NCBI GenBank assembly: GCA_017534595.1
Contig: JAFXVY010000131.1
Span: 1-45,416, forward strand
Length of the DNA: 45,416 bases
DNA from: Ruminococcus sp.
GTDB taxonomy: Bacteria; Bacillota; Clostridia; Oscillospirales; Ruminococcaceae
Direction of reading: 5' to 3'
The notes beneath the pieces were generated by a model. It saw only the letters and a program-made list of their open reading frames with translations, was not told the origin of the DNA and ran no database searches. Positions 3,153-30,948 of this stretch are shown one piece after another (positions within the stretch are counted from its first letter, which is position 1; each line of letters opens with the position of its first letter). A program made the translations under genes and the position numbers.

Positions 3153-4223
3153 ATGAAAAAGAAAATACTGTCCTTCATCAGAACAAAGTGGCTCCTTGCC
3201 ATGACCGTTGCGGCTCTGATCGGAACGATGACCATGATCGGTTATGCGGAATACGATTTTGAGAGCAACTATATGAAGAGAGTAGTCGTGGCCTCCTCCG
3301 ATCACGGAATGATGTTCTCCTCGAACATACTGATAGAGGGCGGCTCGAAGACCTATCAGGCCAAGTCGGATTCCGGCAGCGCACCTTATAACGTAAAGGT
3401 GTATCTCTGGAACTACAGCCTGAAAAACACCTCGCAGTGCTATCCCGGAAAGATAGATTACAGCATCGCCTTTACGCTTACCGACAACAGAGGCAATCCT
3501 ATAACCGATACCTCCGTCCTGACGGCGCCGGATCCCGAAAATCCCGGGCAGTATATCTACAAGACGATAGATGTCAAGGACGATCAGGGCGCTACGGTGC
3601 ATACCTTCAACAGCAGCAATCTGACCCAGCCGTTCACAATGGGCAGCGAGAGTATTCCCGACGGCAGCGGAGATGCCCGGCAGAAGCTCTATACTCTTGT
3701 GTTCAACAACTGGGATCTCAAAAACGATAAGGACGTCTGCGTTCAGGTCGTTGCGACACCCGCAGCGGCTCACAGGGATCTCCACACCCTCGCGGCGGTC
3801 ATCGGTCTTAAAGAGACCGTCGAAGAGGAGCCTAACGTATGGCAGGCCAAGATCTCCGAGATCGAGGACGAGATAAACGATGCCGACGGCTACAACCTCG
3901 TGCTTTCCGGTTCCGGCAAGGCCGATATCGAGATCACCTGGGACACCTCCAAGATCGATCTCAACAAGTATTTCAGGTCGGGCAACACCTATAACCTGTT
4001 CGCAGGCGAGATCGAGCCTGCACCGAACGGAACTCCGGTCATTGACGCCAACGGCTGGCAGACAGTGACGATTCACGCAGATGCGAGTGCATACAGAAAC
4101 AGATACAATATCCAGCTTTATCTCTGCGCGGGCGTAAGACCCGCGGCAGGCTTCTTTGCCGAGGCATCCTCCGCAGGCGCGGCTTCTGCATGGATAAAAT
4201 ACAGCATAACAGCTACGACTTGA
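3153..4223 (+). CDS. Exported protein, 356 aa, with SipW-like signal variant
   Basis: Third gene of the surface operon, 39 nt after the second, with AAAGGAAAGGAG upstream of ATG 3153. The N-terminus is MKKKILSFIRTKW, then a hydrophobic stretch at about 13-30 ending I-G-Y-A-E-Y-D-F. The aromatic junction after Ala recalls the YAWF motif of its neighbours but lacks W-F, so the processing enzyme is less certain. The mature part looks beta-rich, with alternating hydrophobic residues such as VKVYLWNY, IDYSIAFTLTD and ADIEITWDTS, and an Ala/Ser-rich C-terminus. It contains one Cys in CYPG, one in DVCVQVV and one in LYLCAG. No known domain is recognised. The position between SipW-type substrates and the giant protein suggests a minor subunit, adaptor or anchor. 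Confidence 0.7.
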   Translation: MKKKILSFIRTKWLLAMTVAALIGTMTMIGYAEYDFESNYMKRVVVASSDHGMMFSSNILIEGGSKTYQAKSDSGSAPYNVKVYLWNYSLKNTSQCYPGKIDYSIAFTLTDNRGNPITDTSVLTAPDPENPGQYIYKTIDVKDDQGATVHTFNSSNLTQPFTMGSESIPDGSGDARQKLYTLVFNNWDLKNDKDVCVQVVATPAAAHRDLHTLAAVIGLKETVEEEPNVWQAKISEIEDEINDADGYNLVLSGSGKADIEITWDTSKIDLNKYFRSGNTYNLFAGEIEPAPNGTPVIDANGWQTVTIHADASAYRNRYNIQLYLCAGVRPAAGFFAEASSAGAASAWIKYSITATT

Positions 4224-4279
4224 TAAGACGATAAGATATAAAAGAGAGCAGACACAGACCTATCGGGAGTATGATGACT

Positions 4280-10200: not shown

Positions 10201-13200
10201 CGGCGACGGTGCGCTTGACGTTATGGATACGAACGGAGTCATAAAACATTACACCGCCGAGACTCTCGCCGAAATGACTAATGTACAGAAGACGGCACTC
10301 AGGGTCATGGCAAACGGTGTGACCGTGAAAAACGGCTGCAAGAACTATTCTATTACGGATATCAAGTCTGTATGGGGTAAGGATACAAGCGGCAATATCG
10401 TGCAGTCATACATTTACACGGAACCGGGTGCATCCGAACCTACAACTGTAACATTCCTGCCGGATTCTGAAAAGCTTGATACAAGCACTGCAAGTGATAT
10501 CAAGATCCCGAATGCGCAGTCGTTCTTCCTGATGTCTGTGATGATCAACAGCGGTATGGCAAAGGGAAAAGTTGGATATAATCAGAATTTCCAAGTTTCT
10601 CGTTCTGCTAATTATTCCGGAGTTGCAACAAATCCTACACTTGCTGTTGGCTCGGCTCCAACGGACTATTCTTCTTATGCAGTATATGATAAGCTGGAGA
10701 AAGCTTCGGGTAATAACAGATATACTGAAAGAGTAGGTTATATTGGATTAAACTATACTACTGATACAACAGCCAGGAGAGCAGACAGAAAAAATATGAT
10801 AAGCGGTACATTCACTTTAACCGGAGCCGAAACATATTATCTGCCTGACGGTTACAAGGGATTGGGAAATCTCTATCAGAATGATAGCGACTGCCGGATC
10901 AGCGTTTCAACTTTTGAAGGCAGCGGTAAGACTATATCGCAAAACACCACATATTATTATTATGATAATGACGCAACGTCATATAGTCCATATAGTGCTG
11001 TTACAAACGGCTTTGGACTGATAAACTATAGCGGCAGTGCAGGAACCTATCAGAACTTCTATCTTACTGGAAATGTTAAAACTGATCTGCTCAATTATCT
11101 GACCGGAAGCTTTTATACCACAAAAACAGCCTCGGAATTGGATCCCATTAGCAACAATACTGCAGGAAATAGTAAATATCTGAGTGCAGGAATGCTTATA
11201 GGAACAGTAAATAATGATGTAACTGTTAATAATGTTGCACTTGAAAACATTAATGTTTTTGGTCTTCGTAATACCGGAGGCATGATAGGCTATATTACCG
11301 GCGGAAAAACACTAAATTATTCTGTTGCTACAGATCAGAATAAGGATGCCTATAACTCGGATAAGATCATTGTTCACGGCAGAGCAAGCACCGGAGGCTT
11401 GGTTGGTAAGATAAATACCGGATATGTTAAGGTCAATATGAATAATCATACTTTTAATCTGACCGAAGTTGTTGGCGAATGCTCGGACCGAGGCGGTAAC
11501 TATTACGATTTTGGTGTCGGCGGTTTCATTGGAATGATTAGAGCAGGACAGTCATCAGCTGATTTAAATGCAAACTCATTTAAAAACATTATAATCGGAA
11601 CACCGGATAAAGAGCAAACAGTTAAGTGTGAAAATGCTGACATCTTTACAGCCGGCGTTGTTGGCATAATGAATAAAGCGAAAGGTATTACTATAGAAAA
11701 CTGCACTTTCTATAATCTTTCGGTTAAAGCAAAATTCGGAGCTGCAGGCTTGGTTGCTTTTCCGACTACCTGGACACCGGCGCGTGTAAAAAATACACAT
11801 TTGTACAGCCCGTTGGGTTCAACTATTGAGAGCACAGATGATTTCGCCGGCGGTTTGATCGGAAGCTCGGATCCGCGAAGCGGAGACGCTAATGGAAGCC
11901 AGGAATTCAGGTTTGAAAACTGTTCTGTTGAAGGGTATACTATATCGGGCAAAAGAGGTGCAGGCGGCGTTATTGGATTTAGAGGATCGTCAGTTGATAG
12001 TAGAAGACTGATCCTGAATAATGTTAAAGTTGCTGACTGCACTATTAAGTCGGGAAGAACTGCAGAAATAAGAAACAATAAAACTGTTTATGTCGGTTCT
12101 GCCGGCGGATTGATAGGCGAAATGAACTCGCCGGTCATCGGCTATAATATCCTCATGAAAAATGTGAGAATAGAGCCTATTGTATCCGGTCAGGAAATAC
12201 CCAACAAAGGATATATCTGCGGATATATTACTACAAAGAGTGAAGATGTGACATATTCAGTCGGTACAAATCAGAACAACAATACTAACGCAAGAACAGG
12301 AACCAACCCTACTGTCAAAATAGCCGGCTTAAGCAGACAGGCACAGAATGTTTCGCAGATGGAAGATGATCTTGTCGGCACCTGCAACAACGGCACAGAC
12401 AATATATACGGCACCGGCGGCTATGTCATCTTCGCCGACTACAATGACACCGCAAGCGCGGATGATGCTAACAAGCGGTTCTCTAACGTAACGACTTCGG
12501 GTACGAATGTCAAGACAATGCGAAGCGTTACGACCTATACCGAGAACGGAGTACAGAAGACTGTTTACGGTGACTATTACGCTCCTGACGCAACCAAGGA
12601 AGCTGCGGCGAATTCGGAGAACGGATATACCTACACCGAAAGCGGTATCTCCAAGAACGTTCACAACGAAAACTACCCCTTCGTTACCTCAAATCCGATG
12701 GAGTATATCGACGGGAAATATTATCTGACCGGTGATGCGGTAGGATTCAGTCAGCCGGATTATGCCCACTCGGTATTCAAGACCATCGTTACGGATACTA
12801 CCAACAAGAAGTACACAGGTTACAGCGTTTCGCCGGAGGTCAGGAGCTATATTGAAGAGCACTTCTCTTCGTCTCACAAAGAGTTTATTAAGCTCGAAGA
12901 CGGGATCGAGGACTTCCCGCTGCTCGTGATCGAGGATACCGAGACCGATAAGGTGTCCTCTATGATCAACGGTTATATCAACGCACTGACCAATACGTCT
13001 TACAATTTTGCGGACAATGAGTCAAATTCGGCTGTTTACAAAACTGATATCTGCAAGATGCAGTATGCAGACGGAAAATTCAGCAGAGTCGATGATTCGA
13101 ATGAACCCGACGATGCTAACCTCATTATCTCGGATAAGAAATTTCAGATGGCAGGCAACACCTTTGATACCGGCGAGACTCCTACCTTTACGCTCATCGA

Positions 13201-15520
13201 CGTTCAGTTTTTTGATCCGTCCTCGACAAGCATAGCGTATCATCTGTATGTTCCCGTATATGTAAAGAAACTGCTGGAATATAACTTCTATGCGTCCATT
13301 GCCTCAAATACCGATTACTTCAAGACAGGCGCCGGTTATCAGCTCAAGACTGATACGGGATATTTCGCAGCCAACAAGTTCTTTGAGAATCTCGGCAACC
13401 CCTTGACCCTCGGCTTTGAGTACGTCTATACAAGGACTTCGGGTGAATGGGCAGTCGCTCTGAACAGCGGTGAGAGCATTCTCGTGGATTCCAACTTCTA
13501 CAAGGTCCTTATGGTCACATTTAATAATACTAAGGAGTGGCCGTCGGATCTTCAGCTTGTTCTGGTGGATTCGTCAAATAACGGCAAGAACTATTATCTT
13601 GATCATTCAAACCTTCCGACTCCGCCTTCGGGCAGTGCGGTAACGGTTCAGTTGCAGCTCAACAAGTTCACGGCGGCAGACGGTTCAGGCACATACAAGC
13701 CGGTACCTTTCAACAGCCTTGTTGAAAGCATGACTTTCGATACTTCATCTACTGAAGGAGCACTTATCCGCACGGAAACCCAAACTGTAAGATCCACATT
13801 TGAGTATGGCGGGTATTACTATGAGCCCAAGGGTAATCAGACAGCAAATACATATTATAATGTAACAGGAGTGACGCTGAAGCCCGAACGCTATTACCTC
13901 AGCTTCTTCACCAAGAAGATGCCGGGTCCCGGCGAGACCGGCTATAACGAAACAGATTACAATAAGATCTACTACTATGCGATAGGCTCAAAGGGCAAGT
14001 TTGAGAAAAATGATAACAGTGGTGACGGAAACAGCTCTATTACTGATGAAAACTGGCATCCTAACAAGCTCGTAAACAATGCATTCCCTTATCTGATGCT
14101 CGGAAACCTCTACGATACCACACTCGATGTCGATGTTGATTCCGCCAAGAGCGACAAGCTCATGACCAACATCAACAACTACATGAAGATCACCATGACC
14201 TCTACCGTTCAGCTGACACAGTCTGCACGGAGCAACGAAGCCGTTACCAGTGCATTCAAGCTGCTGCCGGGTGAGATCGCGAACATCTCCCAGTGCTTCC
14301 TTATGGCATACAGTATGCTTGATGAGATCGGCGCAGATGAACAGGTAGGTATCGTCAAGGGCGCAGGTACCGTGGCCGGAACTACCTATTACGCAGCAGG
14401 CGGCGTGTACGATTTCAGTAATGCGGATGAACAAGTGGTTTTGGCTGAGGCTGCGAGGTTCGATGCGGCCAAGGAGGACATCTACAATGCCGACAACGTC
14501 AAGGAGACCAACAACTACCTCCAGCTCGGCAACGATGTCAACCTGCTCGACTATCTCTGGAATGAAAACAACAACTATGCAGTAACGCTGCAGACCTACT
14601 TTGAGTATCTGTACGGACCTACGGGTCTGGCGTCTCAGTTCCCGAACTGGGACAGCACAGACACAGAGCATCCTCTCGGCTCCAAGGTCATAGGCTACTC
14701 CAACATCTCGTCCACGAGCGAGAGTGCGGCGTACAGTGCCACATCTATCAAGTGGGATCCCGAGGGCAACGAACGTTACTATACCGAGGGTACCTCCAAG
14801 TCGGCTGTTCTCACATATAATATGGTAGAGAAGCTGGCTGTCGATACCGACGGCATGACGGAGGCTGAGGCCGCAGAGGCGGAGGAGGCCTTCAAGAAGG
14901 AAAAGGCCGACGGCAAATACCGTTCGCTCGGCGTGAACGCGCTGACGGACACCAAGGGTCATATAACAGCGAGAGCGGACTACGACGTTTCGGTGCTGCC
15001 TTCACAGGGAGATTACATCGAGCTGACGATGACCCTCTCGAGAAAGCAGAGCTATGTACGGCCTGCGGAGGATGACCCCGCCAACGAGGGCACGGTGCTG
15101 GAGATAGACGACTATATCTCCGGGCTCAAGATCTACGGCAAGAACAACAGCGTGCTCTTCGATCAGGATAAGATCCTTGACGGCACGGCTGTCCCGCAGG
15201 AGGGCGTGACCGCCTCGATATCCAAGGTCGTAAGCGAAAGCAAGACGATCGCTGCGGGCTATATCTACGTGCTCAGAGTGCGCAAGGATCTCGTTGAGAT
15301 GCTTACCGAGGACAGCACCGACCGCTACGTCTTCAGGATGGATTACGACATCCTGACCGGCGACGGCACAGATAAGTGGAACGAGCAGTACTCCAACTAC
15401 AAGGTATCGCTCACCGCGGTGATGTTCAGAGAAGGGGAGTCCGCTCACCTCAAGAATTCCTACGACAGCGACCACCTGATCTATACAAATGCGAAGGTGC
15501 AGTCGAAGGTAATTGACTGA
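4280..15520 (+). CDS. Giant GLUG-repeat surface protein, 3746 aa
   Basis: A very large secreted, probably adhesive protein. ATG 4280 is preferred over ATGs at 4271 and 4274 because GGGAG lies 10 nt upstream. The signal peptide (NKRLYKILHSNKAKRIV then a hydrophobic AAAALAMFF) probably ends near the ASA at about 50. More than 20 copies of a G-G-[LIVF]-[IVA]-G motif spaced 30-60 residues apart occur at roughly 210-580, 770-970, 1835-1885 and 2300-2615. Examples are GGLAGYVG, GGLFGTLK, GGLLGEAS, GGLIGQVL and GGLVGKIN. This is the GLUG-motif pattern of long right-handed beta-helix proteins. A typical leader of such blocks, F-S-G-C-G-T-Y-N-D-P-Y-I-I-T-T, lies near 1595-1610. The C-terminal 1100 residues lack the motif and look like beta-sandwich material. 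No LPXTG, dockerin, SLH or choline-binding repeats are visible, so surface retention is unexplained. Composition varies along the gene. It closes the operon begun at 795. Confidence 0.85.
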   Translation: MNKRLYKILHSNKAKRIVSAAAALAMFFEVLPMPEIGTKINEWGSTIFASAAVEQDPDFPRGTITVELKNLQRYSQAYRDYPAYHQNDIITIAPAAGDRPELDINSFKSLGTEEYPFNGQIKLSSTFSTMVLNIDAPLFDYVYDSVLLNENTSSRPFKLSRLYKTSNQNEPLLARNIVHNEDKEDVTSYSKTWYVEVLAPSTGSSPNLTSFGGFIGTMYKDFDGIDPEISPSCTGGASLSVNASLYGASGSTSELKSTGNLGLLCGRMEDDTVLNFTLTSDRKITGFATSSGDVGGLAGYVGKGASLTYSGPSDIIQGSATISTKASGYAGGIVGRNCDAEISLPSGVWPITQTIKGALGAGGVYGYFANETKALVNDTLDDSFRASKYTINCTLQGTGYVGGLFGTLKSKQDIEINVDNDVISSHSVSKATAYGGLIGKYTVDSLDHALTINGTANKSVSTANAGTSDYYGGGIGEIDSSATSYVRFKDFTLSSADNTGTLTFGGLVASADNAFVESIDSTIALKANEKFKGGGLVGHLDHGVLKMSGVTDLSQAQAAQPSAKESDGELNNVGQLVGYRDDALIYGTSDWQFHRSTTAAQVDDIGGWGEVIRLSGSGLSGLLTEDADTHIITVAQPKTTILSLLDFAAAALCFQIDGSKNPYVSFSGVTYADPDDSDSVGSGLTWDTIREATITLGCNIDLTGTGFTGLTRDNDVGTVDKKHIFSGTLTSDSTKRTVTLAVGEYYGYRNGAALAAHAEGDGTIYRHSYNGFVGELKGTKNDDTDAPAVINNIIFNGSVYLKAQKGMYAGSAAAYASGSITMTHIESSAAFHHGSGGNLSIGGLLGEASNNIGNMTFSDCDVECHISGNGSNGTSLFLGGVVGRINDIANNTKTWNFSDINISGSIASSFGVSYNRMGGLIAAISPCSVGEDVETNRTLNLNGITVDGLILSASKGSNENAVAPITLGGLLGYSWDNVNADFNEIDVKNSTLTLSNAASGTGDTAGLVYEGTGHWTVDASEDIKITDITVTNGGRSFGMFVNKAFHGYKTDSDSSALFLEIKDTGAYVININETSHPLPTFTTFDEFAAYSAYYRDKDGVRYDYPDGDTNNKYVLQNGAAVISIKTDVTPKGLYMDNGENPSHSYTAQTSKGNTANPYTRYYYNLDDLTTDDEPGALLMRWGVRRYAHNSIKACFDNGGAFTDSTIPNGTYDMQGYSWYPVDIDSSVTVNGTFKFYNKEFEVSETEAYERATDTLNDNYDSESNHKYNRSSLSPMTQHHLLQNGLFRNVNPNITLTVGTVTLQGNVGKTSYGSGALICGRVQGAQDKKAKVNVTGSIVLEQVYVHDISTAFSEYAPLAINKVGDHTELNISANTSTEIFYSEIDSSNESDYPGIVLSGGYPKAATSLIGDVGLSPAPIGITLNFSKMVLDGRTAGIKNNSGNVDSSMNSIYDSVYGSEKSVFTKSTFLNSFKYDSGSFGKYDFTWDEDWKTKKVVIPGVGTFYVAPHAVTYGKELGYTKPYYETTVVTEYPDEELWYSGQDHATGKYTNPDNDNDTTGWYSENFVNDFLPYVATDYNEENKTHQIQVNHTSAAFSGCGTYNDPYIITTEAQLVSISKILRGSHSSFKVAIPLNNSSKPDITVTWHNNSKTFNGEKGHATFEYKEPKSYSGTSTTQKVDENNEPVFDGNGDPVYETYTITYPKGYYRVGYTLPTAEGTTITEGDNYKSVTTIEKYLAGAYYKIGAVDKIEITSGDFKGLGYIGSEGNSYKHAMFRGVFIGDNKEIVNKTKYPFISASNGCVVKDLTLKVASTTAESKYDIPITGKTDTYNAQSQIAYGGLIGQVLGGDTIIDNVLVDYSGFTAKIKANGTKAQLAPIGGYVGVVANGGIIFRNMSVRAATYETKGLKNSMLTATGLESTSTVGYTKMLDDVAKYDSTAGSGGWLYVNPVIGRVINGYAVTESDIYRPFENGYREYGDGALDVMDTNGVIKHYTAETLAEMTNVQKTALRVMANGVTVKNGCKNYSITDIKSVWGKDTSGNIVQSYIYTEPGASEPTTVTFLPDSEKLDTSTASDIKIPNAQSFFLMSVMINSGMAKGKVGYNQNFQVSRSANYSGVATNPTLAVGSAPTDYSSYAVYDKLEKASGNNRYTERVGYIGLNYTTDTTARRADRKNMISGTFTLTGAETYYLPDGYKGLGNLYQNDSDCRISVSTFEGSGKTISQNTTYYYYDNDATSYSPYSAVTNGFGLINYSGSAGTYQNFYLTGNVKTDLLNYLTGSFYTTKTASELDPISNNTAGNSKYLSAGMLIGTVNNDVTVNNVALENINVFGLRNTGGMIGYITGGKTLNYSVATDQNKDAYNSDKIIVHGRASTGGLVGKINTGYVKVNMNNHTFNLTEVVGECSDRGGNYYDFGVGGFIGMIRAGQSSADLNANSFKNIIIGTPDKEQTVKCENADIFTAGVVGIMNKAKGITIENCTFYNLSVKAKFGAAGLVAFPTTWTPARVKNTHLYSPLGSTIESTDDFAGGLIGSSDPRSGDANGSQEFRFENCSVEGYTISGKRGAGGVIGFRGSSVDSRRLILNNVKVADCTIKSGRTAEIRNNKTVYVGSAGGLIGEMNSPVIGYNILMKNVRIEPIVSGQEIPNKGYICGYITTKSEDVTYSVGTNQNNNTNARTGTNPTVKIAGLSRQAQNVSQMEDDLVGTCNNGTDNIYGTGGYVIFADYNDTASADDANKRFSNVTTSGTNVKTMRSVTTYTENGVQKTVYGDYYAPDATKEAAANSENGYTYTESGISKNVHNENYPFVTSNPMEYIDGKYYLTGDAVGFSQPDYAHSVFKTIVTDTTNKKYTGYSVSPEVRSYIEEHFSSSHKEFIKLEDGIEDFPLLVIEDTETDKVSSMINGYINALTNTSYNFADNESNSAVYKTDICKMQYADGKFSRVDDSNEPDDANLIISDKKFQMAGNTFDTGETPTFTLIDVQFFDPSSTSIAYHLYVPVYVKKLLEYNFYASIASNTDYFKTGAGYQLKTDTGYFAANKFFENLGNPLTLGFEYVYTRTSGEWAVALNSGESILVDSNFYKVLMVTFNNTKEWPSDLQLVLVDSSNNGKNYYLDHSNLPTPPSGSAVTVQLQLNKFTAADGSGTYKPVPFNSLVESMTFDTSSTEGALIRTETQTVRSTFEYGGYYYEPKGNQTANTYYNVTGVTLKPERYYLSFFTKKMPGPGETGYNETDYNKIYYYAIGSKGKFEKNDNSGDGNSSITDENWHPNKLVNNAFPYLMLGNLYDTTLDVDVDSAKSDKLMTNINNYMKITMTSTVQLTQSARSNEAVTSAFKLLPGEIANISQCFLMAYSMLDEIGADEQVGIVKGAGTVAGTTYYAAGGVYDFSNADEQVVLAEAARFDAAKEDIYNADNVKETNNYLQLGNDVNLLDYLWNENNNYAVTLQTYFEYLYGPTGLASQFPNWDSTDTEHPLGSKVIGYSNISSTSESAAYSATSIKWDPEGNERYYTEGTSKSAVLTYNMVEKLAVDTDGMTEAEAAEAEEAFKKEKADGKYRSLGVNALTDTKGHITARADYDVSVLPSQGDYIELTMTLSRKQSYVRPAEDDPANEGTVLEIDDYISGLKIYGKNNSVLFDQDKILDGTAVPQEGVTASISKVVSESKTIAAGYIYVLRVRKDLVEMLTEDSTDRYVFRMDYDILTGDGTDKWNEQYSNYKVSLTAVMFREGESAHLKNSYDSDHLIYTNAKVQSKVID

Positions 15521-15757: not shown

Positions 15758-15869
15758 TAAATCAAGATAATTGATAGATAACTACTATCGGCAAGCAATT
15801 TAAGAATTATGAAAGGGTGCTCGGCGATCCAAAGCAGCCGAAATCTACGAAAGAGAAAGGAAAATGATT

Positions 15870-16661
15870 ATGAAAACTACAAAGAAAAGCAAGGCTTCAA
15901 GGAAGCTCCTGCCGGCTATCGCAATGCTGGCTATGTCCGCAACAATGCTTGCGACATCAACATACGCATGGTTCACAATGAACACTACGGTTACCGTAGA
16001 TGGCTTTAAGCTTACTGCAAAGGCAGACTCCACCTATCTTATCATAGGACCTGAGAGTACTGTTACAGGCTTACAGGCAGAAAATAGGAAAGAGTACACC
16101 TATGCTGCTTCGGCTGCTGAACTGGAAGTGTTCCCGTCTGCACATACTAATGCTGTAACTAACACTACTACTGCAGGTGCCACTGCAGATGACAAGGTTA
16201 CTAACTGGTATTATAAGTATGCAGATGTGCCCACTGCCTCCGCATCTACATCGGCTGCAAGAGACATAGCCGATGATGTATTTGAGACAGACTACGTTCT
16301 TCACAGGACAATTTATGTAACTCTCGCCAAGGGCTCTGAGGATGCTTCAAATCTCAGATGTACAAATGCAGAGTTTACTACCACTAATGTTAAGACTGGT
16401 GAGGCCGAAACATTTGACGCTGTTACAGTTCTTGTAACTTCTGCAACTGCTCTCGATGAGGAAGATGCCGGCAGCAATTTTACTCTTGGAAACACTGTAC
16501 TTGCTGCTACTGTTACTGACCAGGCAGTAATTCCTCTTGATGTGTGGATTTACTACAATGGTAATGATGCAAGCGTATTTACTAACAATGTTGCAAATCT
16601 CGAAGGTGCAACCCTTGCGCTCGAGTTCCAGGTTGATTACACTCCTGCAATGAATTCATAA
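15870..16661 (+). CDS. TasA/camelysin-like SipW-dependent surface subunit, 263 aa
   Basis: A probable major filament or surface-layer subunit. ATG 15870 is chosen over ATG 15864 because GAGAAAGG lies 9 nt upstream of it. The signal peptide has a basic n-region (KTTKKSKASRK), a hydrophobic core at 13-30 and the junction S-T-Y-A33-W34-F35-T, characteristic of SipW-type substrates. The mature part is small, Thr/Ala/Asp-rich and nearly Cys-free, with a strand-rich start (TVTVDGFKLTAKA) and a C-terminal block VWIYYNGNDASVF followed by LALEFQVDY. The protein encoded at 17964 shares this block (VVIWLEGNDPDC then MKLSMNFSI). It sits alone between a perfect-consensus promoter and a strong terminator, as expected for an abundant structural protein. 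Assignment to the TasA/camelysin group rests on signal, size and context, not an alignment. Confidence 0.75.
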   Translation: MKTTKKSKASRKLLPAIAMLAMSATMLATSTYAWFTMNTTVTVDGFKLTAKADSTYLIIGPESTVTGLQAENRKEYTYAASAAELEVFPSAHTNAVTNTTTAGATADDKVTNWYYKYADVPTASASTSAARDIADDVFETDYVLHRTIYVTLAKGSEDASNLRCTNAEFTTTNVKTGEAETFDAVTVLVTSATALDEEDAGSNFTLGNTVLAATVTDQAVIPLDVWIYYNGNDASVFTNNVANLEGATLALEFQVDYTPAMNS

Positions 16662-16925: not shown

Positions 16926-17690
16926 TTGGCAGACGAAATACAGACCCTGGTGGGCGGTCTGCGGGCCATTGAGCTTTATTACCGGCCGATCAGGGAGATC
17001 GCAAGCGGTAATACCGTGTTCTTTCAGTCTCAGACAAGGCTGAATACCCCCGGCCTCGGCGTGCTGACCCCCGAAAACTTCCGGGACGTCGCCGAGATCA
17101 CAAACCAGTGCATAACCCTCTTTGAGCTCGAATTCGGGCAGCTGCTCGAGGCGGCCAAGAAATTCACCGACCGCGACGTAAGCTTCAACTGGCTCTCGGT
17201 CTATATGCCCGCCGACTATCTGCGGGATATACGTGCCGAAAAGAACGTCGTTGAGTTCTGCCAGAAGGCCGAGGTGCATACCAATAGGGTGTGCTTCGCG
17301 GTCTCCGGAAAGCTCCTCGAGGAGCAGGACGGGCGCGCCGCTATGGTCATCAAGAACCTCAGAAACCGAGGCTTCCACTTCATGCTCACCGGCTTCGGCG
17401 CAGATTCCTGCCCCATGATGAAGCTCTCTGAGTTCCCCGTCGATTACGTCATGCTCTCGCCGGAGGTAGCCGATTTCCTCGGCAAGACCCCGAGATCCGA
17501 GGGCGCGGTCAAGTCGATAGTCGAGTTCGTCGGCGAGCTCGACGCCACCGCTATCGCCGACGGCGTCAGAAACGCCCCCGCCGCAGAGGCGCTGTTCAGC
17601 TTCGGCTGCAATTACGTCTGCGGCTCCCTCGCCGGTAAATACGTCGGCGAGCGATATGTCAGAAAGAAAAACGACGACGAGAAGTCCTGA
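16926..17690 (+). CDS. Degenerate EAL-domain protein, 254 aa (predicted catalytically inactive)
   Basis: A single-domain EAL-fold protein. EAL enzymes hydrolyse cyclic di-GMP with conserved acidic metal ligands. Here the fold signatures align but the catalytic residues are lost. The EALLR motif after YYRPIREIASGNTVFF reads QSQTRL, the D-D-F-G-T-G motif reads L-T-G-F-G-A-D, the A-E-G-V-E motif reads I-A-D-G-V-R, and the C-terminal L-G-C-D-x-x-Q-G reads F-G-C-N-Y-V-C-G. The start is TTG 16926, with AAGGGGG 8 nt upstream; no ATG fits the ribosome site. It has no membrane helix or partner GGDEF domain. Inactive EAL proteins can act as cyclic di-GMP receptors or protein-interaction modules, but binding residues look eroded too. 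The location upstream of peptidase and filament genes suggests regulation or scaffolding of the surface system. Confidence 0.8.
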   Translation: MADEIQTLVGGLRAIELYYRPIREIASGNTVFFQSQTRLNTPGLGVLTPENFRDVAEITNQCITLFELEFGQLLEAAKKFTDRDVSFNWLSVYMPADYLRDIRAEKNVVEFCQKAEVHTNRVCFAVSGKLLEEQDGRAAMVIKNLRNRGFHFMLTGFGADSCPMMKLSEFPVDYVMLSPEVADFLGKTPRSEGAVKSIVEFVGELDATAIADGVRNAPAAEALFSFGCNYVCGSLAGKYVGERYVRKKNDDEKS

Positions 17691-17963: not shown

Positions 17964-18677
17964 TTGAACGAGAAAACAGTAAACGTTCTTGAGCTCCGGC
18001 GAAAGTCCAAGGAGGTCAAGCGCTATGCCATAGTCACAAGGGTGCTCGGGCTGCTTGTCATCATCCTTGTGGCGATAATCGCAATAGCCTATGCGATATC
18101 CTATTTCTATGACAAGTTCGGCAGCTTTACCGTTAAGGTGAACAAGTACGATATGATGCGTCAGGGTCTGACGCTGTCCGAAACGCCCGAGTTTGAGCAG
18201 ACCGTCTCGGTGCTCAACGCGGATATAGTCTACGATATGACGAATATCTCCGGCAGCGACCTGCCCGCGAACCTCGATATGGTCAACGGCTCACATAACG
18301 GCGAAAGCTATATCGCCTATACCTTCTACCTTATAAATTCCGGCTCGGATACCCTCTCCTATGAAGGGGAGATGCTTATAGACAACGTCACCAAAGGCGT
18401 GGACGAGGCCATAAGGATCGCTCTCCATGAGAACGGCGAAAAGACCGTCTACGGCAAGACCAAGTCCGACGGCTCGGGTAAGGAGTCCGACTGCGATAAG
18501 GAATTCCTCGCCTCCACAATGGTGATGAAGAACAGCCACACCGAGTTCAAGCCCAAGGAAAAGCATAAGTACACAGTAGTCATCTGGCTCGAGGGCAACG
18601 ATCCCGACTGTGTCGATGCGATAATCGGCGGCACCATGAAGCTGTCGATGAACTTCAGCATAAAGGAATCCACGTAA
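17964..18677 (+). CDS. Membrane-anchored TasA-like protein, 237 aa
   Basis: Start TTG 17964 has AAAGGAG 9-10 nt upstream; the nearby ATG at 17957 is out of frame. Residues 1-23 are charged and cytoplasmic, a transmembrane helix spans about 24-48 (VTRVLGLLVIILVAIIAIAY), and the remaining 190 residues should be extracytoplasmic. There is no clear A-W-F cleavage motif, so it may remain anchored. The C-terminal block VVIWLEGNDPDC, then IIGGTMKLSMNFSI, matches the equivalent block of the small subunit at 15870 (VWIYYNGNDASVF, then LALEFQVDY) in spacing and key residues (G-N-D, hydrophobic L-x-x-x-F end). I infer a membrane-tethered paralogue of the surface subunit, perhaps a filament base or nucleator. 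It is followed by the peptidase gene after 18 nt. Confidence 0.65.
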   Translation: MNEKTVNVLELRRKSKEVKRYAIVTRVLGLLVIILVAIIAIAYAISYFYDKFGSFTVKVNKYDMMRQGLTLSETPEFEQTVSVLNADIVYDMTNISGSDLPANLDMVNGSHNGESYIAYTFYLINSGSDTLSYEGEMLIDNVTKGVDEAIRIALHENGEKTVYGKTKSDGSGKESDCDKEFLASTMVMKNSHTEFKPKEKHKYTVVIWLEGNDPDCVDAIIGGTMKLSMNFSIKEST

Positions 18678-18695: not shown

Positions 18696-19481
18696 ATGAA
18701 AAAAGCTTTAAAGATCGTAGGTAATGTCCTGCTGTGGGTGCTTCTGATATTTGCACTGCTCATTACCATACTCGTTTTCTCATCGAACAGCAACAACGGT
18801 GTCTCGAGCCTGTTCGGGCTCATGCCCATGACCGTCGAGTCGGACTCCATGAAGCCCACCTTCAAGGAGAACGATATGATCATGGTCAAGGAGATAGACG
18901 ATATCAACGACCTCAAGGTCGATGACGTCATCACCTTCTGGACAAGAAGCATAGTCGAGGGTCAGCGCGTTAAGAATACGCACCGTATCGTCGAGATCAA
19001 GGAGACGAGCAGCGGCAGCCGCACCTTCATAACACGAGGTGATAACAACGCCGCAGACGACGAGGTCCCCGTATATGCAGCCGATATAATCGGTAAGTGG
19101 ACGGGCTTCAAGCTCCCGGGCTTCGGCAAGGTGATGCACTTCCTCCAGACGAAGACAGGATTCTTCCTCTGCATAGTGCTCCCGATGGCTCTGTTCTTCC
19201 TCTTTGAGCTTTACAGGTTCATCACAACGCTCATAGAGGTCAAGAAGGCCGATACCATCACCGAGACCGATGAGGAGGAGATCAAGCGGAGGGCTATCGA
19301 GGAATACCTCGCCAGCCAGAAGCAGGCCGCAGAGGCAGCAGGTGCCGGGGGGGATACAAAGACAGAAGCTCCCGAGGCTCCTGCACAGGAAACTCTGGCA
19401 GAGAACGCCGAAGCAGAAACTACGGAAGATAATACATCCGCTGCGGAGCCCGCTCCGGACGGAGAGAAAACAGAAGAATAA
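18696..19481 (+). CDS. sipW: SipW-type (ER-type) signal peptidase I, 261 aa
   Basis: A membrane serine protease that cleaves signal peptides of exported proteins on the outer face of the cytoplasmic membrane. An N-terminal transmembrane helix spans about 7-29. The catalytic serine box reads T-V-E-S-D-S51-M-K-P-T, the H box reads N-T-H96-R-I-V-E, and the acidic box reads T-R-G-D116-N-N. His in place of Lys as general base and the G-D-N-N box define the ER/archaeal/SipW branch rather than the LepB branch. A second helix spans about 154-172. The C-terminal 90 residues are an Ala/Glu/Pro-rich, probably disordered cytoplasmic tail, longer than usual. It lies in a tight run with the anchored TasA-like gene upstream and the AAA+ gene 21 nt downstream. 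Its likely substrates are the YAWF-signal proteins at 795, 2052 and 15870. Confidence 0.92.
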   Translation: MKKALKIVGNVLLWVLLIFALLITILVFSSNSNNGVSSLFGLMPMTVESDSMKPTFKENDMIMVKEIDDINDLKVDDVITFWTRSIVEGQRVKNTHRIVEIKETSSGSRTFITRGDNNAADDEVPVYAADIIGKWTGFKLPGFGKVMHFLQTKTGFFLCIVLPMALFFLFELYRFITTLIEVKKADTITETDEEEIKRRAIEEYLASQKQAAEAAGAGGDTKTEAPEAPAQETLAENAEAETTEDNTSAAEPAPDGEKTEE

Positions 19482-19502: not shown

Positions 19503-21068
19503 ATGAACAGTTTTCTTAAATGGTTTTTTGTATTTATTTCCGAGATGCTCAAAGGATTCGGAATGATCTTCAAGGGCATCGGCACCGGAATAGTACAGAT
19601 CTTCAATATCAAGAATTATATAGAGATATTCAAACAGTATTCGACGGATTTCAGTGTGCTCAGCTGGATACTCGCCATACTCTCGATCATCATAGTGATC
19701 GCGATCTATGTGCTGATAGCCTTTATCATCCTGCTGCTGATAAGAAAGTATGTCCGTTTCAGGCATTCGCTCGTCAGCAACGAGGACCTGCTCGAGGAGA
19801 TCTCCAATCTCCAGAGACAGGTGCTCAAGATGACCAAGGAAAAGGACGAGATCATGGCTATGAAGGTCGCCCAGATGGGTCTGCCCGTGTCGGGCGGAGT
19901 CTCCTTCGGCGACGGCACCGTCCCCTACCAGGCCGGAGAGGGCGGCGAGGGTGCGCAGGCAGTCGAGGACGGTATCGTTCAGACGGCAGACAGGCGCTTC
20001 TCGCGTCTGCTTGAGGTGGACAGCTTCTACAAGAACTACACCCCGCCGGAGTACGACAACGCCATTACCCTCGAAGGCATCTGCGAGGCCTACCGCAATT
20101 TCGCCTGCTCGAAGATGCACCTTTACTATGAGATCAAGACTATACGCCTGTTTATAGCGGGTATGGCTTCAACGAAGCTCATCATCCTCCAGGGTATATC
20201 CGGTACAGGTAAAACTTCGCTGCCGTATTCGTTCGGTAAGTTCCTGCAGAACGATACCACGATAGCTTCGGTACAGCCTTCGTGGCGTGACCGAACCGAG
20301 CTTTTCGGATACTTCAACGAATTCACCAAGAACTTCAACGAGACCGAAGTGCTCAAGAGGATCTATGCATCGGGCTATAACAACGACGTCAACCTGATAC
20401 TCCTCGATGAGATGAACATCGCCCGTATCGAGTATTACTTCGCGGAGATGCTCTCCATACTCGAAATGCCCAACGCCGACGAGTGGGAGCTCGATATCGT
20501 GCCCAACGCCTGGAGCACCGACCCGCTCAAGCTCGATAAGGGCAAGCTGAGGATCCCGCAGAACGTATGGTATATCGGTACGGCGAATAACGACGACTCG
20601 ACCTATGCCATTTCCGATAAAGTATACGACCGTGCTCAGCCGATAAACCTCGATGCAAAGGGTATCGCGTTCAACGCGCCCGAGCAGGGGCCCATAAACC
20701 TCGGCTACGACCACCTCCAGCAGCTGTTTGACGAGGCCTTCGAGAAGTACCCGATCTCTCAGGAGAACCTGAGAAAGATCCAGCAGCTCGACCTGTGGGT
20801 AATCGAGAAGCTCAGAGTTGCGTTCGGTAACCGTATCTTAAAGCAGATGGGTCTGTTCGTTCCCGTTTACGTCGCCTGCGGCGGCGAGGAGCTGGACGGT
20901 ATAGACTACGTTCTCGCTACCAAGATCTTCAGAAAGTTTGAGTCTCTCAACCTTGCAATGCTCAGAGAGGAGCTCAGAGAGCTCGTTATCTATATCAACA
21001 AGTCCTTCGGTAAGAACAAGATGAATGAGTCCGTCGCTTACCTCGAAAGACTCCAGAAGCTGTTCTGA
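19503..21068 (+). CDS. Membrane-tethered McrB-like AAA+ ATPase, 521 aa
   Basis: A P-loop NTPase of the McrB/MoxR-related AAA+ group. The N-terminus is amphipathic (about 1-50), followed by a strong transmembrane helix at 52-80, a coiled segment at 91-120 and a linker. The AAA+ core spans about 205-480. It shows Walker A G231-I-S-G-T-G-K-T238, a Q-P-S-W-R-D-R-T-E-L-F-G-Y-F-N segment, Walker B L-I-L-L-D-E-M-N (298-305), sensor 1 G-T-A-N-N-D-D-S-T near 359-367 where McrB has M-N-T-A-D, and an arginine-finger candidate D-R377. McrB proteins of restriction systems are cytosolic and carry a DNA-binding N-terminus; this one has a membrane helix instead. The next gene begins 52 nt downstream and carries a DUF2357/McrC-like region, the usual partner of such ATPases. 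Nucleotide preference (GTP or ATP) cannot be read from sequence. I infer an energy-coupling unit at the membrane, not restriction. Confidence 0.82.
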   Translation: MNSFLKWFFVFISEMLKGFGMIFKGIGTGIVQIFNIKNYIEIFKQYSTDFSVLSWILAILSIIIVIAIYVLIAFIILLLIRKYVRFRHSLVSNEDLLEEISNLQRQVLKMTKEKDEIMAMKVAQMGLPVSGGVSFGDGTVPYQAGEGGEGAQAVEDGIVQTADRRFSRLLEVDSFYKNYTPPEYDNAITLEGICEAYRNFACSKMHLYYEIKTIRLFIAGMASTKLIILQGISGTGKTSLPYSFGKFLQNDTTIASVQPSWRDRTELFGYFNEFTKNFNETEVLKRIYASGYNNDVNLILLDEMNIARIEYYFAEMLSILEMPNADEWELDIVPNAWSTDPLKLDKGKLRIPQNVWYIGTANNDDSTYAISDKVYDRAQPINLDAKGIAFNAPEQGPINLGYDHLQQLFDEAFEKYPISQENLRKIQQLDLWVIEKLRVAFGNRILKQMGLFVPVYVACGGEELDGIDYVLATKIFRKFESLNLAMLREELRELVIYINKSFGKNKMNESVAYLERLQKLF

Positions 21069-21120
21069 CAGCCCGACCCAAAATAAAGAAAAATACATAA
21101 AGAGGGCAGGTGAGAAATGA

Positions 21121-24051
21121 TTGAACGGCTTATACAATGACTGGTATGAGGATTTCAAGGAATCGGTCAAGGCCTTCGGCGATGACGAGCTGTTCGATCA
21201 GCTCGACGCTCTGCTCAGGGCAAGCCAGAGCACCTTCGCCTTTAACCGCAAGCTCATGGAAAAGGCCATTGACGTCTCGTGGGTGGAGACGATCGAGAAC
21301 GGCCTGATCCATGTGGATAACGTGCTGAGAAACCCGAGCCGGACGATAGAGGATGTCGAGGAGATAGTCCCCATCGAGAGGTCGAGGAAGATCACCGTCG
21401 AATCGGTGAAGCACCTCGCTCAGCATACCGACTTTATCCAGAGCATAGATAAGCGCACGGGGAAGATAACCCCCTCGAAGATACTCAACGTCCATAAAGA
21501 GGAGAGCTTCCTCACTTATGAGAACAAGTTCGTAAATACGCTTATCGACCGACTGTATATCTTCATAAACACCAGATACGAAAAGCTCGCCCAGGTCGCC
21601 AGGGATGAGGAGGTCTATACCTTAGGCTACGATACCTCGATCGACGACGGCTCCGGCGGAAGAATGAAGATCGAGCTCAAGCTCGAGACCTCTGACAGCC
21701 TCGAATCCACCGACTCAAACGGCGTGACGATCTGGCAGAGAGTAGAAAAGCTCAAAAAGATCATCGAGGGGTATAAGGGCAGCGAGCTCTGTATGACCCT
21801 CGGAAACAACTATATCAGGCCGCCTGTAATGAGAACGAACGCGATCATGAAGAACGTCGAGCTCAAGGCGTGTCTGGCACTGTGGCAGTTCATCGAAAGC
21901 TACGATAAGGTAGGCTACGAGATCAACGTCGAGAATACCGCCGTAAAGCCGCAGAATAATTACGTCGAGGATTTCTACAAGCTCGTGGTCATGAACCTGC
22001 TGCTGTTCAGGGCGTATACCTCAAGCGGCACCGGCGAGATGACCGAGCTCAAGACTCAGAAGTCCAAGGCAATAGCCCCGAGATTTGTCAAGCACTTCGA
22101 TAAGGAGATCGCCGCAGACTACGGCATACAGACAGAGGCTGCGGTCGGATATATCTCGGCAGACGGCGACTTCAAGATGACCAAGAAGCTCCCGAAGAAT
22201 ATGAACCTCGTCTTTACGCAGATAAATGAGGCGATAAGGATCGAGAAGGCGTTTTTGGCAGAGCGTGAGCGCGAGAGACTTGCTCAGCTCGCCGCCGAGG
22301 AGGAGGCCGAGAGGCTCCGCATCGAGGAGGAACGCCGTCAGGAGGAGCTGCGGCGTATCGAGGAGGCCAAGCGCGAGGAGCGCGAGCGTATCCAGCGCGA
22401 GCAGGAAGAAGAGCAGCGAAGGATACAGGAGCTGCTCGAACAGAAACGCCGCGAGCAGGAAGAGGAAGAGCGCGAACGTGCCCGCCTCGAGGCCGAGCGG
22501 CAGGCTAAGCTCGAGGAGCAGAGACGTCTCGAGGAAGAAGCCCGCCTGAGGCGCGAGGAAGAAGAACGTGTCGCCGCGGAGCGTGAGCGTGTGCTTCTCA
22601 ATAAGATGAAGATGCGCTCCGAGCTCGGTGAGGCCGAGGGCGTTGACGCCGATAAGCTCGATGAGACCGAGAAGGAGGCCGAGCTCGAAAAGCAGGCTTA
22701 CGAGCAGGTCACCACAGAGGAGATCGAGCAGATCAAGGAGGAGCTCGAGGAGAACGAGGAGGAAAACGCCGAGTTCGAGGATCCGAGAGCTATCGCCGCC
22801 CGAAAGAAGCTCGAGCAGCAGAAGAAGGAAAAGGAGCGGCGTGAGGCAGAGAGAGCCCAGAGGCTCAAGGCTGACCGCAAACGCTTCGAGAGCAAATCCT
22901 TTGAGGAGATCAGGTGGGAGTATTCCCACAATCCGATCAGGCTGCTGCAGAAGCTCATACAGTACATCCTCGTTTACTGGTTCCATATCATACCGGCAGA
23001 TACAGACAACCCCGATCACAAGAAGCTGCGTGAGGAGCTCAACGAGCGCAAGCGCATAAGGGAGAAGGAGGCCGCCGAGCGCGACGCTATGGAGGTCTAC
23101 TACCGCAAGTACGCGCTTACCTTCAAGTACCGCTTCAGAAGATATCTGGCTGACCGGAAGTTCAAGAAAAAGAAGAGGCTCGAGGCGAAGAACAGGCCGA
23201 AGCCGACCTATACTCCGCCCAAGCGTACTCCCGAGGAACAGCGTGAGATCGACCTCGAGATGAAGCGCCTGTACAGAGAATACCATGTAAGCTGGATACA
23301 CAGAGTTATCCGGGATTATAAGGAACGCAACCGTGCAGGTGAGGAGGAAGAGGCTCAAAAAAAAACTGAATCCGAGGGAAAGACCTTAGCAAGAAGGATC
23401 GTTGACATACTGCTGACAGTGCTGCTTGCGTTGTCCATACTGTTCTGCGGCTATGTGCTGATACAGACAGCAAGAGGCAAGGCTGTGAACCTGTTCGGCA
23501 GGAGCGTGCTCAAGGTCGTTACGGGAAGCATGGAGCCCTCGATCCATGTGGGGGACTACATAGTAGTCGAGAAGACCGACCCCGATACCCTTGAAAAGGG
23601 CGATATTATCTCGTTCTATTCGGATCAGAGCGATGTCGCGGGGAAGATCGTTACCCACAGGATCGTGGACATCAATGAGGACGGCTCCTTCGTTACGAAG
23701 GGCGATACCGCCTCGGACGGCTCTCCCAATGAGATAAACGACACGGCACCCGCAGTCAGGGAAAAGCTCATCGGAAAGTATACCGGGAAATCAAGATTCT
23801 TTATCTGGCTCGGATCCTTCGGTGAGACCAAGAAGCTCCTGATGGTGCTTGTGATACTGCCGATAGCCGTTATGGCAGTGCTCGAGCTGAGAAATGTGTT
23901 CAAGCTCGGCAGGAAGGTCCGTGAGGAAAGACGGCAGCAGGCAGAGGAAAACAAGCAGAAGCTCATCAGAGCGGAGATCGAAAAGGAAAAGCAAAGGCTC
24001 GCGGAGCAGGGCTTCACGGGCGAGGAGGTGAAGGACGATGAATCAGGATAA
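21121..24051 (+). CDS. DUF2357/McrC-like - coiled coil - SipW-type signal peptidase fusion, 976 aa
   Basis: Start TTG 21121 has AGGTGAG 6 nt upstream; the ATG at 21117 is out of frame. Residues 1-375 form a globular cytoplasmic region. It includes H-K-E-E-S-F-L-T-Y-E-N-K-F-V-N-T-L-I, which resembles the E-N-R-F-V core of DUF2357 proteins that partner McrB-like ATPases. Residues 375-595 are a highly charged E/R/A/Q coiled coil. A basic region (600-755) with a hydrophobic patch QKLIQYILVYWFHII follows, then a transmembrane helix at about 759-783. A complete signal peptidase domain comes next, with G-S803-M-E-P-S, T-H846-R-I-V-D and K-G-D862-T, then a second helix at about 905-923 and a charged tail. 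No PD-(D/E)xK nuclease motif was found. The order places the DUF2357-like part inside the cell and the protease outside. This is an unusual fusion linking a McrBC-type module to SipW-type processing. Confidence 0.82.
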   Translation: MNGLYNDWYEDFKESVKAFGDDELFDQLDALLRASQSTFAFNRKLMEKAIDVSWVETIENGLIHVDNVLRNPSRTIEDVEEIVPIERSRKITVESVKHLAQHTDFIQSIDKRTGKITPSKILNVHKEESFLTYENKFVNTLIDRLYIFINTRYEKLAQVARDEEVYTLGYDTSIDDGSGGRMKIELKLETSDSLESTDSNGVTIWQRVEKLKKIIEGYKGSELCMTLGNNYIRPPVMRTNAIMKNVELKACLALWQFIESYDKVGYEINVENTAVKPQNNYVEDFYKLVVMNLLLFRAYTSSGTGEMTELKTQKSKAIAPRFVKHFDKEIAADYGIQTEAAVGYISADGDFKMTKKLPKNMNLVFTQINEAIRIEKAFLAERERERLAQLAAEEEAERLRIEEERRQEELRRIEEAKREERERIQREQEEEQRRIQELLEQKRREQEEEERERARLEAERQAKLEEQRRLEEEARLRREEEERVAAERERVLLNKMKMRSELGEAEGVDADKLDETEKEAELEKQAYEQVTTEEIEQIKEELEENEEENAEFEDPRAIAARKKLEQQKKEKERREAERAQRLKADRKRFESKSFEEIRWEYSHNPIRLLQKLIQYILVYWFHIIPADTDNPDHKKLREELNERKRIREKEAAERDAMEVYYRKYALTFKYRFRRYLADRKFKKKKRLEAKNRPKPTYTPPKRTPEEQREIDLEMKRLYREYHVSWIHRVIRDYKERNRAGEEEEAQKKTESEGKTLARRIVDILLTVLLALSILFCGYVLIQTARGKAVNLFGRSVLKVVTGSMEPSIHVGDYIVVEKTDPDTLEKGDIISFYSDQSDVAGKIVTHRIVDINEDGSFVTKGDTASDGSPNEINDTAPAVREKLIGKYTGKSRFFIWLGSFGETKKLLMVLVILPIAVMAVLELRNVFKLGRKVREERRQQAEENKQKLIRAEIEKEKQRLAEQGFTGEEVKDDESG

Positions 24052-24490
24052 GGTCATGAAGCGCAGGATGATAACCGCGATAGTGCTCATGCTGGTAAGC
24101 TTCATTGCTCTTGCCATATTCATCGGACTTTATCTCGACGAGACCACTCATGTGCAGGACACCTACAAAAAGCAGTACCGCACCGAGATCGGTCATGTGC
24201 TTACGGAAATAGATATCTATCTTGAGCCCGAGGGAGACCATGAGCTCATATACAGGCGGGTAACGAACTATATGAGCAACGCCGGCGCCTTCGCCTTCCT
24301 GATCGACGATTTTACCGAGAAGCAGATAATCGTAAACGAGGTAAGCACAGCGCTTATCAGGTACCCCGATCAGATGAAGGAAAAAATGGAAGAGCTCAAG
24401 ACCGCGCTGAGCGATATCAATTCCGAACTTGACAAGGGATATGACGAACTCAAGGAGCTTTATGAGTCTCTTGATCTTAAAGGAAACTAA
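24038..24490 (+). CDS. Small single-pass membrane protein with C-terminal coiled coil, 150 aa
   Basis: ATG 24038 lies inside the end of the fusion gene (14-nt overlap) with GAGGAGGTG 7 nt upstream, so translation is probably coupled. A basic N-terminus (NQDKVMKRR) precedes a transmembrane helix at about 12-31 (ITAIVLMLVSFIALAIFIGL). An extracytoplasmic segment of about 85 residues follows, then a helical, charged C-terminus with heptad-like spacing (KEKMEELKTALSDINSEL onward). I recognise no family. Coupling to the DUF2357-peptidase fusion suggests that the two proteins work in one complex. Confidence 0.75.
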   Translation: MNQDKVMKRRMITAIVLMLVSFIALAIFIGLYLDETTHVQDTYKKQYRTEIGHVLTEIDIYLEPEGDHELIYRRVTNYMSNAGAFAFLIDDFTEKQIIVNEVSTALIRYPDQMKEKMEELKTALSDINSELDKGYDELKELYESLDLKGN

Positions 24491-29901: not shown

Positions 29902-29922
29902 ATGCACAAAGGAGGGATAATT

Positions 29923-30948
29923 ATGAAGAAAATTGGAACTTTGTTACTTACTGGCTTGCTTTGTATTACGCTGGTATCTTGCGGTGATGCAGATAGTAAA
30001 AATGACATTTCATTTGCTACTGAACCTGCTACAACTACTACAATTACAAAAATAGAAACCACAACTACAACAACTACAACAACTACTACAACTGCTTGTG
30101 CCCATGAATGGAAAGCTGCAAATTGCTTGGAGCCTGAAACTTGCAGCAAATGTGGGGAGAAAAGAGGCGAAAAAGGAGACCACATTTGGGAAGAGGCAAC
30201 GTGTACTGAACCCAAAACTTGTTCTTTATGTGGAAAAACTGACGGAGAGGCTTTAGGTCATAAATGGAAAGAAGCAACTTGTACTGAACCAAAAATCTGT
30301 GCAGTATGCGGGAACAAAGAAGGTGAGCCTAGTGGACATAAGTGGATAGAGGCAACTTGTCAAGCGCCTAAAACCTGTTCTGTTTGCGGAATAACTACAG
30401 GTGTGTCATTATCACATGATTGGAAAAAAGCAACTTGTACTGAACCAATGACTTGCAAATTATGTGGAACTACCATTGGAGAACCAAATGGACATAAATG
30501 GAGCGACGCAACATATGACAAACCAAAAACCTGTTATATTTGCGGTGCTACGGAAGGAAAACCTCTTGATAGAACCATTCTAAGAGAAATAGCTATTGAA
30601 ACCGTTGATAATTCAGTTAAAAGAATAGATGCTTCATTAAGATCTGGTATAGGTTTAGCGAGGGTTGATAAATACGGAATAAATGAAGCAGATGGTAAGA
30701 ATTATGATATTTACATCTCTTTTGATAGAGCTAGAGAAATGTATCAAAGCTATAGATCTAGTTTCTTAGATTTTATAAATGAATTGAAAGGTTGTTGTAG
30801 TCAATACAAAAAAGTTTTTGAAGAAGTTGGGGACTATGAAACAAATGTCTATATTAGAGTCGGCGCAATGTATCTAGGACAAAGTGTGCTTATATATACA
30901 ATAAAAAATGGAGAAATAACATATGATGCAATAGATACAATAATTTGA
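29923..30948 (+). CDS. Lipoprotein with six Cys-rich tandem repeats, 341 aa
   Basis: ATG 29923 has AAAGGAGGG upstream. The signal peptide ends in the lipobox L-V-S-C20-G, giving a lipid-anchored surface protein. A Thr-rich linker (about 38-60) follows. Six repeats of about 26 residues then span roughly 61-220, with consensus H-x-W-x-x-A-T-C-T-E-P-K-T-C-x-x-C-G-x-x-x-G-E. Each carries three Cys (A-T-C, T-C, C-G), suggesting zinc binding or disulphides; repeat 6 has Y for the first Cys. The C-terminal 120 residues form a separate domain without Cys motifs except a C-C pair, and resemble nothing I can name. The gene is far more AT-rich than its neighbours, a sign of recent acquisition. Probably controlled by the divergent XRE protein. 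Confidence 0.85.
   Translation: MKKIGTLLLTGLLCITLVSCGDADSKNDISFATEPATTTTITKIETTTTTTTTTTTTACAHEWKAANCLEPETCSKCGEKRGEKGDHIWEEATCTEPKTCSLCGKTDGEALGHKWKEATCTEPKICAVCGNKEGEPSGHKWIEATCQAPKTCSVCGITTGVSLSHDWKKATCTEPMTCKLCGTTIGEPNGHKWSDATYDKPKTCYICGATEGKPLDRTILREIAIETVDNSVKRIDASLRSGIGLARVDKYGINEADGKNYDIYISFDRAREMYQSYRSSFLDFINELKGCCSQYKKVFEEVGDYETNVYIRVGAMYLGQSVLIYTIKNGEITYDAIDTII

Follow-up and report, generated by a model that had tools for sequence, protein, structure and literature searches.

McrBC type IV restriction systems place a McrB-like ATPase beside a DUF2357 protein, and the N-domain of McrC contacts the McrB motor and stimulates it, according to the available passages of Bell et al. (2024, eLife, PMC11090510). 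The same passages describe the CoCoNuTs, with NxD ATPases and long helical extensions, where a system without the McrC nuclease always adjoins another predicted nuclease. They also introduce the name CoCoPALM for NxD McrBC systems that are linked to a signal peptidase and carry an FtsB-like N-terminus and coiled coils, and defer these to a later paper (PMC11090510). A literature search yielded, going by titles, this paper and its preprint alone on the subject; it found no such later paper, nor any function for a CoCoPALM.

In the SipW/TasA biofilm fibre operon of Bacillus subtilis, a SipW peptidase is encoded beside exported proteins, and a YAWF-like motif at the end of the signal helix is the hallmark of SipW/TasA-class signals. 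We know of no NTPase in that operon, and to our knowledge no energy source has been described for SipW/TasA-type fibre assembly.

The locus analysed here, a putative processing machine and its neighbours, lies in a window of 45,416 nucleotides from a rumen bacterium; the window is an entire contig, one of the 144 that make up a 2.88-Mb genome. The named relatives nearest to its fusion gene belong to Ruminococcus. By its ATPase motif, membrane helix and peptidase, the locus fits the CoCoPALM type as judged from sequence. It shares with the CoCoPALMs an NxD McrB-like ATPase whose N-terminus has a membrane helix and a predicted helical part, a McrC homologue with a predicted helical extension, and the association with a signal peptidase family, whereas the McrC-peptidase fusion, the link to TasA and SipW, and the operon contents found here are undescribed in the available passages of PMC11090510. 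The association between McrBC systems and signal peptidases is itself already in print, as those passages show (Bell et al. 2024, PMC11090510). As far as our searches show, what is new is the direct fusion of McrC to a peptidase, its repeated fusing and splitting, the two-peptidase operon with its WLEGNDPDC protein, and a control set of nuclease-bearing relatives.

The other systems are more distant in definable ways. As in McrBC restriction, a McrB-like ATPase stands beside a DUF2357 protein; here, however, no nuclease domain was detected, the ATPase has a membrane helix, and a peptidase is present instead. The NxD ATPase and long helical extensions recall the CoCoNuTs as they appear in the same passages, but no other nuclease was detected among the operon genes scanned (PMC11090510). 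As in B. subtilis, SipW-type peptidases are encoded beside exported proteins whose signals end in a YAWF-like motif; unlike there, one operon holds two peptidases, and the exported proteins are TasA-like by their signal region.

The McrB-like ATPase and the DUF2357-peptidase fusion

Two sets of loci were used for comparison. A scan of the genome collection with the N-domain of the fusion gave 101 relatives, and the best 80 of these 101 were kept as family loci. The contrast set comprises 55 places with DUF2357 outside the family (L103-L157), those in G359, G264 and G367 having been left out; across the phylum, DUF2357 was found in 54 genomes out of 398. Motif counts refer to complete genes, that is, 73 ATPases (the window's included) and 70 of each peptidase.

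The ATPase gene (19503-21068, + strand, as for all genes of the locus) was assigned from its open reading frame, homology and hydropathy. Its 521-residue product contains a membrane helix predicted by hydropathy at residues 62-80 (19686-19742), a Walker A motif GISGTGKT at 231-238 (20193-20216), a Walker B motif LLDEMN at 300-305 (20400-20417) and an NNDD signature, taken as NxD type, at 362-365 (20586-20597). The motifs, the last of them within TANNDDST, are kept in all 73 complete family ATPases, the window copy included, and the mean column identity is 81% (52 of the 73 family copies). A preliminary description made from the sequence had named a McrB-like AAA+ ATPase with an N-terminal transmembrane helix and these motifs, and this was borne out, McrB being the top match among solved structures (E = 0.0035 by phmmer with the single sequence; E = 0.0073 with a profile). 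The stretch after the membrane helix is helical as judged from composition only.

The membrane helix separates the family from its relatives. All 73 family ATPases have a hydrophobic helix within their first 200 residues, versus 2 of 50 contrast ATPases. The two groups are nevertheless related, since the profile of the family ATPases picks out an ATPase in 50 of the 55 contrast places, with scores of 54 to 109 bits. The signature of these contrast ATPases is NxD wherever it is readable (43 of 43, from the 50), and the NNDD of the family lines up with it there; NNDD literally fits NxxD too, and when it is aligned to McrB without gaps, its last D falls on the D of NTAD. The FtsB homology given for CoCoPALMs in the available passages of PMC11090510 was not recovered in the ATPase, whose N-terminus, compared with 27 DivIC-type proteins by hhalign, gave 16% over 14 columns. 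The ATPase also matches the PADLOC phage-defence candidate PDC-M26A (E = 6.9e-37), and because PADLOC files it there, defence finders may mislabel an export-linked ATPase family.

The next gene (21121-24051, TTG start) encodes a protein of 976 residues in which family models place a DUF2357 domain, a charged helix and a SipW-type peptidase. The DUF2357 or McrC N-domain covers residues 65-262 (21313-21906). Residues 65-163 match Pfam DUF2357 over its gathering score (E = 1.6e-8), and all 58 aligned N-domains of the family match DUF2357. When profiles were compared with those of DUF2357 proteins that bear a nuclease, the match reached 90% for residues 65-164 and 76% for 64-262, whereas two unrelated controls scored 0.1% and 0.4%. 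Searches of the PDB did not reach McrC: the N-domain as a single sequence had no match, and the DUF2357 profile found plant PR-10 type proteins only, with E of 0.54 and above. The McrC match proposed in the preliminary description holds by sequence profiles and was not recovered by the PDB searches, and the McrC-like part is smaller than the N-terminal half claimed for it, amounting to about the first 260 to 380 of the 976 residues.

About 370 residues of charged helix and linker separate this part from the first membrane helix of the peptidase (763-781). Residues 380-620 (22258-22980) are 61% E/K/R/Q and 2% P/G; their coiled-coil periodicity is weak, 60 of 1000 shuffles scoring as high. For this rod, a coiled coil and a single helix of the E/R/K type are both conceivable.

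The C-terminus is a complete signal peptidase of the SipW/ER type, as the preliminary description had it. Residues 759-917 match TIGR02228 over its cut-off (E = 1.9e-24), while the match to the SipW model NF046067 (E = 7.7e-24) reaches 84 bits against a cut-off of 190. Ser803, His846 and Asp862 lie within this domain (23395-23874); His and Asp are present in 70 of 70 aligned copies, and Ser is present by construction of the set. Ser, His and Asp residues are characteristic of peptidases of this type. The hydrophobic helices in the ATPase and before the peptidase agree with the membrane location suggested earlier. The missing nuclease of the preliminary description is borne out as well: family-model scans of the fusion, read up to E = 0.1, detected no nuclease domain. 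The contrast set has the opposite make-up, with a PD-(D/E)xK nuclease (PDDEXK_7) on 10 of 10 DUF2357 proteins scanned and a SipW-type peptidase in 0 of 55 stretches, six of which are shorter than 10 kb.

Conservation, fusion and distribution

The gene order recurs across the 80 family loci. The ATPase lies upstream of the DUF2357 gene in 76, the other four having less than 400 bp of DNA there, and the first SipW-type peptidase (SipW1) lies upstream in 71, the remaining nine having less than 2600 bp. A contig end precedes the second peptidase in 7 of the 80 loci; in the 73 with an intact contig, a profile test found it every time, within the DUF2357 protein (fused) in 42 loci and in the gene that follows in 31. 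The survey of adjacency suggested in the preliminary description thus turned out in favour of a conserved pairing.

Fusion is not a one-off frameshift, because 42 of the 80 loci share the same fused frame. On a tree of 76 rows (the window and the 73 loci, plus L095 and L096, two divergent relatives), made by a quick method without bootstrap and with two very long branches, the label switches between fused and split five times, at least three of which are forced by well-supported branches; one switch, at L006, could reflect a frameshift. Since the split form occupies the deepest rows, fusion was probably the later state. In L095 the ATPase is 44% identical and the same set of machine genes stands among other proteins with SipW-type signals. 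One gene for such a protein lies there between the DUF2357 and second peptidase genes, which counts against the explanation that we favour below.

Among 148 genomes of the bacterial family, the WLEGNDPDC protein occurs in nine, including all eight that have the DUF2357 class of the machine; these eight overlap with the 80 loci and are not independent of them (contigs of G065, G028, G035 and G071 have the same lengths as those of L010, L054, L055 and L008). In the ninth, G005 (L190 and L191), one contig carries a WLEGNDPDC-type protein, YAWF-type proteins and SipW1, and breaks off directly behind SipW1; on another contig, a McrB-like ATPase adjoins a long DUF2357-type protein in which a PD...DAK motif can be read by eye.

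Signal peptidases of the TIGR02228 type are more widespread. They score above the cut-off in 46 of the same 148 genomes, and 38 of these are without the DUF2357 class, so the motor appears to be an addition to SipW processing and not a condition for it. The genome of the window itself has two TIGR02228 matches, both in the operon described here. Carriage by phages was considered and set aside, with no match in 50,697 phage records; so was carriage by plasmids, where 72,556 records gave two weak matches only (24% and 32% identity, one annotated DUF2357).

The operon and its candidate cargo

The series of + strand genes from 786 to 24490 is inferred to form one operon, because of its common direction, spacing and conserved gene order. 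It begins with three exported or membrane proteins (786-2030, 2052-3113 and 3153-4223), relatives of which follow immediately after the machine genes in some loci, for example L065, L068, L069 and L073. There follow an open reading frame for an exported protein of 3749 residues (4271-15520), a candidate surface component that has relatives beside the machine in several loci and no Pfam match at E up to 0.05, and one for an exported protein of 265 residues with an STYAWF signal (15864-16661), a candidate fibre subunit according to a signal scan and hhalign.

Next come a degenerate EAL-domain protein (16926-17690; Pfam EAL, E = 3.4e-31), a membrane protein of 237 residues with a single helix and a C-terminal WLEGNDPDC stretch (17964-18677), conserved over 67 aligned copies, and SipW1 (18696-19481), the first of the two signal peptidases. 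The glutamate of the EAL motif is catalytic. The position read by eye as this glutamate is Q in 57 of the 66 copies of the protein beside the machine, so that an active c-di-GMP phosphodiesterase is unlikely. SipW1, of 261 residues, matches TIGR02228 over its cut-off (E = 1.3e-26) and NF046067 under its cut-off (E = 2.8e-34), and all 70 of its aligned copies have the Ser, His and Asp. Beyond the ATPase and the fusion, an open reading frame for a membrane protein of 150 residues (24038-24490), with 71 complete copies in the fetched loci, overlaps the end of the fusion gene.

Three proteins of the operon end their signal helix in IAWF, VYAWF and TYAWF respectively, the former two being the first two of the series. 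The WLEGNDPDC stretch of the 237-residue protein is common to YAWF proteins (90%, hhalign), and Peptidase_M73 proteins also show the YAWF-like signal motif; when the exported proteins of the operon were compared with the latter by hhalign, the signal region alone was aligned (48% and 51%). TIGR04088 matches two of nine proteins, under its cut-off. For the fold of the exported proteins of the operon, no family model scored above its cut-off and no PDB match settled the question; their putative TasA-like nature rests on the signal region and the short C-terminal motif. Under a strict pattern, proteins with YAWF-type signals occur in 32 of the 80 family loci versus 0 of the 55 contrast loci, the former number being low in part because many stretches are short. 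The operon neighbours with SipW-type signals are candidate substrates of the machine.

One family locus has further genes of this kind. At 13368-15403 of L050, downstream of the machine, an extra SipW-like peptidase (224 residues, weak match) is followed by a protein of 454 residues with an STFAWF signal.

Proposed function and alternatives

The domains, the hydrophobic helices, the lack of a detectable nuclease, the gene order, the fusing and splitting and the signal types of the neighbours, all read from sequence, form the basis for a functional proposal. The preliminary description had suggested an NTPase-driven apparatus for export, processing or assembly. We too consider this the best reading, given that SipW-type signals occur on several proteins of the operon, though the underlying association is not new, as the available passages of PMC11090510 make clear. 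Specifically, we propose that a CoCoPALM-type NxD ATPase and a nuclease-free protein of DUF2357, rod and SipW peptidase, together with the other SipW peptidase of the operon, process and help assemble the SipW/TasA-class surface proteins of the operon, and we give this reading an even chance of being correct. Besides the intervening gene in L095, several results count against it: the PDB searches that missed McrC, the weak periodicity of the rod, the narrow basis for calling the exported proteins TasA-like, the 38 genomes with such peptidases but without the DUF2357 class, and the strict YAWF signals in no more than 32 of 80 loci.

In such an apparatus, the ATPase would form a ring beneath the membrane, tethered by its N-terminal helix, and the DUF2357 part would dock in this ring as in McrBC. 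The charged rod would run to the membrane helix before the peptidase, which would face outside. The helix could then transmit NTP hydrolysis to the peptidase or to the site of assembly, driving or gating cleavage and assembly, with the other SipW peptidase joining in the processing and assembly of the surface proteins. A bolder version, which we offer tentatively, makes the McrB-type motor an engine for extracellular fibres that turns or pulls a DUF2357 stalk, connected by the rod to the peptidase, so that NTP spent inside pays for signal cutting and polymerisation outside.

Other explanations of the same genes can be weighed against processing and assembly. The conserved single-helix protein of 237 residues, the degenerate EAL protein and the joining of a peptidase to an NTPase partner would also suit a signalling function, where the ATPase and DUF2357 part time the cutting of a membrane-anchored regulator, or of the 237-residue protein, without mechanical work on fibres; we think this unlikely, as a number of large exported proteins, encoded in the operon and also in divergent relatives, resemble cargo and not regulators. 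A membrane-bound anti-phage system derived from McrBC or CoCoNuT, with the ATPase sensing invasion and the peptidase acting as an envelope-damaging effector, is quite improbable in our judgement. The PDC-M26A match and the nuclease-bearing McrBC pairs among the relatives of the ATPase speak for it; against this, no nuclease was detected in the fusion or the scanned operon genes, the phage records gave nothing and the plasmid records two weak matches only, and the fetched loci keep a fixed gene order that includes exported proteins and a second peptidase.

Quality control, in which an ATPase-DUF2357 unfoldase clears misfolded or uncleaved membrane precursors with the peptidase as entry point, deserves a similarly low rating: the AAA+ architecture, the membrane tether and the two peptidases in one operon would accommodate it, but no cytoplasmic protease was found among the operon genes scanned, and McrB-type ATPases are not known to us as unfoldases. 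Most of the loci belong to Clostridia that are related to one another, largely Ruminococcus. Descent may therefore have preserved the adjacency, and a McrBC pair and a SipW operon might share a place without sharing a function. The fusion disfavours this: 42 loci with a single reading frame, 31 more with neighbouring genes and repeated switching between the two, as well as the same gene set in a relative with an ATPase 44% identical, make mere shared descent very improbable.

Processing and assembly of surface proteins, if correct, would mean that a restriction-type motor has been reused for protein export, and the locus suggests that a defence-type motor was reused to build surface fibres. 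The bolder version would provide both a McrBC relative without a nucleic-acid role and an NTP-powered machine for SipW/TasA-type fibres, neither of which is known to us from the literature. With McrC and peptidase linked within one protein (42 fused, 31 adjacent), what had been a loose association becomes a testable molecular partnership.

Downstream of the operon, the window also contains an open reading frame for a lipoprotein-like protein of 348 residues (29902-30948), in which CxxCG ... HxWxxATC repeats can be seen by eye.
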